A stretch of DNA of 64,000 nucleotides from an uncultured Selenomonadales bacterium (GTDB lineage: Bacteria; Bacillota; Negativicutes; Selenomonadales; Selenomonadaceae): the NCBI GenBank assembly GCA_900321035.1, contig ONUH01000010.1, positions 629-64,628 on the forward strand. Direction: 5' to 3'. The notes beneath the pieces are model-generated. The model worked only from the letters and a program-made list of their open reading frames with translations. It did not search any database and had not been told where the DNA came from. The translations under genes and the position numbers were made by a program. Shown one piece after another: positions 24,829 through 57,245 of the stretch; the first letter of the stretch is position 1; every line of letters begins with the position of its first letter.

Positions 24829-24900
24829 ACAAATCTGCGAGAGGTTTTGAGCATAGCTTATCCGGCTGTTCATCCCGTACGGAAGATTCTTTAAGCAAAA

Positions 24901-25360
24901 GTTTTTCACAGTGACTTATACGATTTTTTCATAATAATGCTCTTGCAGGGGCAAGGGGCGTTCCTCCCCTTGCACCCCTCCTTAGGGCCCTGCGGGGCCA
25001 GGATTCCGCGGTGAAAGCTTGGAATATCTTAGCGAAATCATTTATCCCGCGATTCAGCCTTTTGACGACTTTGACTTTAGCCCATTTTTGCGGATTTGAT
25101 TTTTTGTAACCTATACATAATCTTGACTTTGTAATATGGTTAAAGGTTAGGTCATCGTATTTTTAACGCGGGATAAACTATTACTAAAGTCACCACAATC
25201 GTGCGTCGCGGCATCTTCGGCCCCGCAGGGCCTTTCAGGGGATTCAAAAGGGGACGTAGTCCCCTTTGTGGGGAAGTTTGAAGGGGCAAAGCCCCGTCAA
25301 GCCTATTTCACGGCGGATAACCATAAGGAATCGTACAAGTCGCTGCCGAAACCTTTCGCA
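24901..25360. repeat. Palindromic element, copy 1
   Basis: Roughly 460-475 bp. Outer inverted repeat: AATCGTACAAGTCGCTG at the right end (25329-25345) mirrors the left end at 24901-24926, whose complement reads AATCGTATAAGTCACTG. Inner mirrored blocks include ATCCCGCGATT/ACGCGGGAT and GGCCCTGCGGGGCC/GGCCCCGCAGGGCC. The same blocks occur in the same order at 30556-31027 and 56759-57245. No open frame is shared. In this copy the left end has only a decayed parS-like sequence (TTTTTCACAGTGACT). It fills the gap between gtrA and the GarR-like gene. Confidence 0.75.
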
Positions 25361-30175: not shown

Positions 30176-30261
30176 TGGTGCCGAAGGCCGGACTTGAACC
30201 GGCACGTAGTTGCCTACGGCAGATTTTGAGTCTGCTGCGTCTGCCATTCCGCCACTCCGGC
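30176..30261 (-). tRNA. tRNA-Leu (CAA)
   Basis: 86 nt with a 7-bp acceptor stem (GCCGGAG / CTTCGGC, one wobble), encoded CCA, the long variable arm of class II tRNAs, T-loop GGTTCAAGTCC, and anticodon loop CTCAAAA giving CAA. It reads UUG codons. Confidence 0.95.
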
Positions 30262-30555: not shown

Positions 30556-30571
30556 TGTTTCACGTGAAACA
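30556..30571. promoter_or_regulatory. parS site, perfect match
   Basis: TGTTTCACGTGAAACA is identical at 16 of 16 positions to the Bacillus-type ParB (Spo0J) binding site used in chromosome segregation. Confidence 0.93.
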
Positions 30572-31011
30572 TTTCCTTTCCGGGGGTGGGCGTCGCCCTC
30601 CCCCGGTCCCCCGCCCACGCGAGGGAGACCCTCGCGACTCCCCAGAGGGGCCTGCGGGCCCGGTATTCCGCGGTGAAAGCTCAGAACAATTTTTTGGGCA
30701 GTTCATCCCGCGATTAAGCCTCTTGACAACTTTAGCTTTAGCCCATTTTTGCGGGTTGAGTTATTGCAACGCAAACACAATCCAGACTATGTAAAATGGG
30801 CTAAAGTTTAAGTCGTTCCAACCTTAATCGCGGGATAAACTATTGTTGAAGCAATCATAATCGTACGTCGCGGAATCCTGGCCCCGCAGGGCCCTAAGGA
30901 GGGTTCCAAAGGGAGGAACGCCCTTTGCAGGGTCCGCAGGGGCAGCGCCCCTGCAAATTATATTTGCAGTTGCAAATATAATTTTATAAACAAAAAGCAA
31001 ATAACGAAAAA

Positions 31012-31027
31012 CGTTTCACGTGAAATA
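31012..31027. promoter_or_regulatory. parS-like site
   Basis: CGTTTCACGTGAAATA matches parS at 14 of 16 positions with the CACGTG core intact. It sits at the right end of palindromic element copy 2. Confidence 0.7.
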
Positions 31028-56758: not shown

Positions 56759-56774
56759 TGCTTCACGTGAAACA
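56759..56774. promoter_or_regulatory. parS site, near-perfect
   Basis: TGCTTCACGTGAAACA: 15 of 16 matches to the Bacillus-type parS; the only change is at position 3. Confidence 0.83.
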
Positions 56775-57245
56775 TCTCCTTTTTTCGGGGGTGGGCGTCG
56801 CCCTCCCCCGGATCCCCCGCCCACACGAGGGAGATCCCTCGTGGCTCCCCAAAAGGGCCTGTGGGCCCGATATTCCGCGGTCAAAGGAAAGTATCACTTT
56901 AGGATTCGTTCATCCCGCGCTCAAGGTTGGAATAGCTTATACTTTAGTCCATGTTACATAAGTTAAATTACGTTTGCGCCGCTGCATCCTCAACCAGCAA
57001 AAATGGGCTAAATTATAAGTCATCAACAGGCTTAATCGCGGGATGAACTGTCCGATAAGTTATTCCGAACTTTCACCGCGGAATCTTTGGCCCGCAGGCC
57101 CTTCCGGGGGATTCACAAGGGGCTCTCCCCTTGTGTGGGGAGGCTTGGAGGGGCGAAGCCCCGCCAAATCAATTTCATAACGATGAATGAAAACAATCGT
57201 ACAAGTCATTGCCAAAACCTTTCGCGAAAAATTACATACTCCAAT
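56759..57245. repeat. Palindromic element, copy 3, with parS-like left end
   Basis: About 487 bp, same order as copies 1 and 2: parS-like end, GGGGGTGGGCGTCGCCCTCC hairpin, GGGCCTGTGGGCCCGATATTCC, CATCCCGCGCTCAAGG, centre, AAAAATGGGCTAAATTATAA, GGCTTAATCGCGGGATGAAC, GGCCCGCAGGCCC, and the right end ATCGTACAAGTCATTGCC-AAAACCTTTCGCG. It fills the gap upstream of flagellin. No coding frame is shared with other copies. Confidence 0.78.

Follow-up and report, generated by a model that had tools for sequence, protein, structure and literature searches.

Background

The site parS serves as the segregation centre of the chromosome and usually occurs in few copies near the replication origin. The ParABS systems of B. 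subtilis, S. coelicolor and L. innocua have the same 16-bp palindrome as the genome described here and likewise have a parA-parB pair adjoining several parS. Known genomes hold up to 20-23 parS, located near the origin (PMC7333895), and in Caulobacter and Pseudomonas extra or displaced sites are tolerated or functional only within ~500-650 kb of it (PMC5815017, PMC5098823). Experiments in the same two genera have shown that segregation suffers when parS is located far away from the origin (PMC5098823, PMC5815017), and the reasons for variation in parS number and for origin proximity are questions raised in a review (PMC7333895). Compared with these systems, Schwartzia carries 19-52 chromosome-wide parS, borne on dispersed repeats whose orientation is linked to replication. 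The Noc sites of Bacillus are likewise short, scattered and bound by a ParB-family protein (PMC4331003), whereas the sequence found in Schwartzia is that of the ParB site and lies within repeats that have a conserved arm. Use of a partition system by a mobile element is known from SGI1, which relies on the parABS of an IncC plasmid (PMC10954446); SGI1, however, is a large integrative element and the system a plasmid one, whereas here the chromosome's own parS is carried by tens of short repeats.

MITEs, BOX, NEMIS/Correia and REP/REPIN sequences resemble the 475-bp element described below in being short intergenic repeats without coding capacity that show inverted symmetry, occur in many copies and nest; the likeness to MITEs extends to the presence of terminal inverted repeats. 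The repeats reported here differ from all of them in that they carry centromere sites or gather at them, and we know of no member of those families that does so; neither a transposase nor a target duplication was identified for the present repeats. In the literature searched, which comprised few subscription papers, nothing relevant was found on parS in association with MITEs or in Negativicutes, and no precedent was found for the parS expansion.

Features of the window

The window analysed, a stretch of 64,000 nucleotides, is contig 27 of the source genome (G000), a 2.40-Mb MAG of Schwartzia (Selenomonadaceae) in 30 contigs; sequence comparisons beyond the window used stretches surrounding the sites. 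A preliminary description had recognised in it three mirrored palindromic copies, a 16/16 and a 14/16 parS flanking copy 2 and a 15/16 site at the start of copy 3. Our data were in agreement with all of these: the three copies (Table 1) aligned with 66-73% identity, also against each other's reverse complement, and the three sites were the only ones in the window to match parS with at most two mismatches. Folding, proposed in the same description, gave copy 2 an energy of -128 kcal/mol versus -68 for shuffled sequences (z = -13), and an Rfam search of the window returned only a tRNA, the element being without any RNA family match. Decayed parS sites had also been reported in copy 1 and at the right end of copy 3. 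These are in fact the terminal inverted repeat of the element: ACCTTTCGCGAAA, considered as a parS remnant in copies 1 and 3, was rejected as such because it belongs to that repeat (...AATCGTACAAGCCATTGTCAAAACCTTTCGC), and the closest parS match in copy 1 has 6 mismatches. Upstream of the left parS of copy 2, arm B, which flanks parS, is shortened to CAAATCGGGTTCCCAA; it is intact at the orthologous site of G003 (L145).

Table 1. Location of the features in the window and elsewhere in G000 (positions without a contig prefix refer to the window)
Feature	Location	Strand	Remarks
Palindromic element, copy 1	24895..25359	+	terminal inverted repeats at both ends; without parS
tRNA gene	30179-30261	-	just upstream of copy 2
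Perfect parS, TGTTTCACGTGAAACA	30556..30571	.	left edge of copy 2
Palindromic element, copy 2	30572..31011	+	nested inverted blocks and hairpin modules; core 30636-30905
parS-like site, 14/16	31012..31027	.	right edge of copy 2, followed by diverged arm A (AATCGACAATAACATG)
parS-like site, 15/16	56759..56774	.	left of copy 3
Palindromic element, copy 3	56775..57225	+	right terminal inverted repeat ends at ~57225
parA	C13:20795-21565		
parB	C13:21558-22550		domains ParB_N and HTH_ParB
56-bp insert, examples	C10:4304-4375; C7:131080-131151; C16:7593-7664		others in L266-L279

Abundance of parS

Genome-wide, G000 contains 21 perfect parS and nine sites with 1-2 mismatches, for a reversed control pattern with 0 matches and a chance expectation of ~0.00025 perfect sites in the whole genome. 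Perfect sites numbered 28, 31, 20, 19, 19, 52 and 31 in other congeners and 0, 0 and 4 in the remaining ones. Eight congeners have 19-52 perfect parS, and nearly all of the 341 genomes of the class have 0-7; the expansion may be absent from the type species of Schwartzia. The parS-rich exceptions outside Schwartzia were genus g53 (19-40 in four species), G211 (40), G242 (14) and G217 (10).

The 40 perfect sites of G211, which belongs to genus g35 of the same family as Schwartzia (L331-L335), lie in tandem arrays on few contigs, with spacers of ~20-60 bp. This genome was rejected as a case of dispersed expansion on account of its different arrangement.

The short repeat that carries parS

A small set of flanks is common to the 121 parS sites of four genomes. 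The site is part of a repeat of ~55 bp whose arm is conserved, the main unit being CGAAAAAA-[TGTTTCACGTGAAACA]-AWCGAACATAACMTGAAAAT...ATGAAA (consensus of 112 sites). Almost all sites are intergenic; a strict placement at convergent gene ends was considered and rejected, since every gene context is represented. Variants of the repeat include parS pairs at a distance of 131-133 bp that enclose a hairpin, other pairs at 56-57 bp and, close to parB, doublets at 34 bp; solo repeats have no conserved hairpin besides parS itself. Among the 131-bp units (G007 L116, L117, L119, L121, L124 and L128), the hairpin stem varies from copy to copy while an ACAAGC-like loop is kept, and one G007 locus has an extra such unit in comparison with three other species, resulting in a second arm A and parS. 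We consider it likely that two repeats are involved: a short parS repeat dispersed over the whole genus and, separately, a younger MITE-like palindrome of 475 bp that accumulates at the parS repeats.

Evaluation of the mobility of the short repeat is based on its abundance. parS is absent from some loci of G000 whose G007 orthologues have it, but the intergenic DNA concerned is unalignable or the gene order broken, so that insertion borders are undefined. Since no clean insertion of a solo repeat with target duplication was found among G007-G000 orthologues, we infer mobility from copy number. Each of the two flanks of L120 in G007 corresponds to a different parS locus of G000 (L046 and L065), which suggests that rearrangement may have taken place between dispersed parS repeats, and thus that these also lie at rearrangement points.

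The hairpin of the 131-bp units resembles a structured RNA, a single-stranded DNA element or a terminator. The doublets near parB enclose a GAACAnnTGTTC-like palindrome (L060:2196-2245, L129:1553-1602, L149:2539-2588), which we take to resemble the Gram-positive LexA (SOS) box.

A 56-bp insert within parS

At nine sites of G000, three of G007 and one of G003, a hairpin-rich sequence of 56 bp interrupts parS at the exact position TGTTTCACGTGA^AACA. No full copy of this insert was found outside parS in the four genomes searched, and at one of the split loci parS is intact in G003 and G004. From copy to copy the stem sequences change as though they covaried. Its subterminal hairpins, its fixed target and the absence of target duplication are traits that the insert shares with IS200/IS605 or REP-like elements. 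Transposons are known to target eukaryotic centromeres, with which elements targeting parS may be compared, and this parS-specific insertion offers a mechanism to study.

Chromosomal placement and orientation

The genomes of the congeners are MAGs, none of them closed, with mechanical gene calls and partly overlapping locus sets; distances from the origin therefore rest on gene order in other genera. The proteins adjoining G007 parS were located in two closed relatives, G017 and G016, where their distance from parB covered 0-0.99 and 0-0.93 of the half-chromosome, respectively. Kolmogorov-Smirnov comparison with uniform placement gave P = 0.37 for G017 and P = 0.05 for G016, the latter with some excess near the origin. 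The contig of G000 that contains parB is locally rich in parS (7 in 86 kb). Clustering at the origin, which is a rule of thumb for parS and not its definition, thus applies to some sites beside parB, most others being dispersed: the layout is an origin cluster plus copies across the whole chromosome.

Orientation of the repeat was far from random. Arm A runs along the G-rich strand at 66 of 74 sites, as judged by 8-kb GC skew (P = 2e-12). Co-orientation was also observed at 29 of the 35 sites with convergent or divergent flanking genes, which excludes gene direction as its cause, at 39 of 47 sites outside G007 when third-codon-position skew was used, and at 15 of 20 in G007 with separate 20-kb flanks; these tests are not all independent, as the Schwartzia 8-kb loci and the G007 loci partly overlap. 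The orientation of the arm ties the repeat to the direction of replication, through selection or through the mode of insertion. In genus g53, which belongs to another family, the dispersed parS adjoin an unrelated arm (GGGGACAT); the sequence of this arm, TTTTGCAGAGGGGGACATGGTTTTAGAAAAAATTT, differs from that of Schwartzia and is oriented in the same way at 18 of 22 sites. Two unrelated repeats that have only the exact parS in common argue that parS is the functional part.

If the mode of insertion alone were responsible, a Y1/HUH transposase of the IS200/IS605 or REP-like type would have moved hairpin-rich DNA as a single strand on the template of the lagging strand, and the parS copies would afterwards have been retained or lost by drift. 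The strength of the co-orientation with GC skew, the hairpins of changing stem in the 131-bp units and the 56-bp insert, and the insertion of the latter without target duplication are consistent with such a mechanism. We nevertheless hold it to be rather unlikely, because the same orientation bias accompanies two unrelated arms, solo repeats have no conserved hairpin other than parS, and no transposase was linked to them.

Conservation of parS

Conservation was evaluated on sites collected by the arm alone, in a search that limited arm mismatches to two. Perfect parS abuts 41 of the 45 real arm-A sites of G007. Mismatches amounted to 5/704 positions in parS and 24/765 in the arm (P = 0.001), a modest difference of which a part could stem from the way the arm consensus was defined. 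At the arm-A sites of G000, parS is either perfect, nearly so, or cut by the 56-bp insert, gradual decay being seen in few. Species with 75-90% identity in the neighbouring DNA have kept parS at the loci that they share.

These data bear on the possibility that the 16-bp palindrome is merely part of a transposable repeat, one captured parS having been recently copied, and that the scattered copies are mostly neutral baggage. The intergenic location of the copies and the arms that they have in common would be expected in this case, as would the absence of a counterpart of G007 sites at some orthologous G000 loci, and the cell evidently tolerates the splitting of many G000 sites by the 56-bp insert. 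On the other hand, the arm varies more than the parS that it adjoins, parS persists at loci shared by species that are 75-90% identical nearby, the identical 16-mer is found on an unrelated repeat in another family, and several perfect sites adjoin cores of the 475-bp element that average 71% identity. Neutral baggage thus appears unlikely.

ParABS and the role of the scattered sites

G000 has a single canonical parA-parB pair, which adjoins five parS and lies beside the origin cluster, and one further, weak ParB-like match. The simplest reading of these sequences is that ParB may load at sites round the whole chromosome. The scattered parS would then function as loading sites for ParB-CTP, recognised by the only ParABS found in the genome, and ParB, perhaps condensin too, would load all around. 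More tentatively, and with some doubt on our part, it can be proposed that the centromere of at least two Negativicutes families has become a dispersed repeat, chromosome-wide and replication-polarised, which loads ParB everywhere (a diffuse centromere) and which has been colonised or broken by elements targeting parS. Schwartzia, with 19-52 perfect parS in a preferred replication orientation, represents a natural exception to origin-proximal parS, to which a second family that reached the same state by different repeats adds.

Another possible explanation is that the ParB of the scattered sites acts mainly in the manner of Noc, marking the nucleoid and keeping division away from it rather than segregating the origin. 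Noc is a relative of ParB that binds specific scattered sites in the B. subtilis chromosome (PMC4331003), the Noc model gave the best NCBIfam score for the G000 ParB, although below its cut-off, and the only other ParB-like match is weak. However, the N-terminus of the protein is ParB-like (MAKKSGLGGQGLGALI), its gene follows parA, and the sequence of the Noc site is unlike parS, so that a mainly Noc-like role would be quite unlikely.

Distribution of the 475-bp element

The palindrome had been described as a non-coding repeat, which is confirmed by its 34 copies in G000, the full cores of which average 71% identity, and by the lack of a coding copy among the matches examined. It is abundant in only two of the sampled species, being numerous also in G003, and three other congeners have only weak traces of it; no full-length copy was found in six sampled congeners with 19-52 parS. 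Many copies have the terminal inverted repeat GCGAAAGGTTTTGACAGTGGCTTGTACGATTG on both ends and others have variant ends. A split copy (C15:30128/32135) was considered as an autonomous element and rejected, since it encloses an ordinary gene and not a transposase.

A parS or broken parS lies within 330 bp of 14 of the 34 copies, on both sides in six and on one side in eight, and the other 20 have none. This exceeds the ~9% expected if elements were placed at random in intergenic DNA, taken as 12% of the genome (P ~5e-7). The preliminary description had anticipated that parS would be enriched in elements, which was found, and near the origin, to which parS, occurring chromosome-wide, is not confined. 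About 12-14 of the 30 parS of G000 are outside the element, and the distance between its terminal repeat and parS ranges from 19 to >120 bp; among the copies with parS on both sides, outer flanks and spacing vary.

Comparison of orthologous loci provided an order of events. At one locus, a lone parS in G003 and G004 corresponds in G000 to a split parS plus the element and another parS. At another, parS is found without the element in G004 and G007 and with it in G000 and G003. Because relatives have parS alone there, parS preceded the element, at least at these two loci. Sites with parS and no element are L136/L153 and L160/L094. A third case is probably the region of window copy 3: what appears to be the corresponding intergenic region of G007 holds a perfect parS and no element, with only one of the flanking genes aligned.

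The 475-bp palindrome is therefore regarded as a MITE-like repeat, separate from the short parS repeat and younger, which gathers at parS repeats. The sites would serve as its landing places, perhaps through ParB or as tolerated intergenic DNA, and the element would be a passenger on the parS repeats and not their distributor. The proposal of the preliminary description, that the element bears parS at its ends and spreads it, is very improbable: although six copies have parS or a remnant of it on both sides and eight more on one side, and such copies can exceed the parS-only site of relatives in parS number, 20 copies have no parS, congeners without the full-length element have equal or higher parS counts, the spacing is variable, and parS stands alone at the same loci in relatives. 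What remains of that proposal is the multiplication of parS by repeats, the carrier being the short parS-plus-arm repeat instead of the 475-bp element.

Smaller repeats were also observed in association with the element. The repeat CCTTCCCC...GGGGAAGG...GGATGAGGT occurs as an insertion within the loop of the element as well as beside other sites (L050, L079, L061). The palindromic element also contains, nested within it, the small inverted repeat CGTAACAGTCCAGTGGACTGTTACG and variants of it (L053, L060, L074, L332), and a similar one, CCGTAACATGCCACTGGCATGTTACG, occurs in G211.
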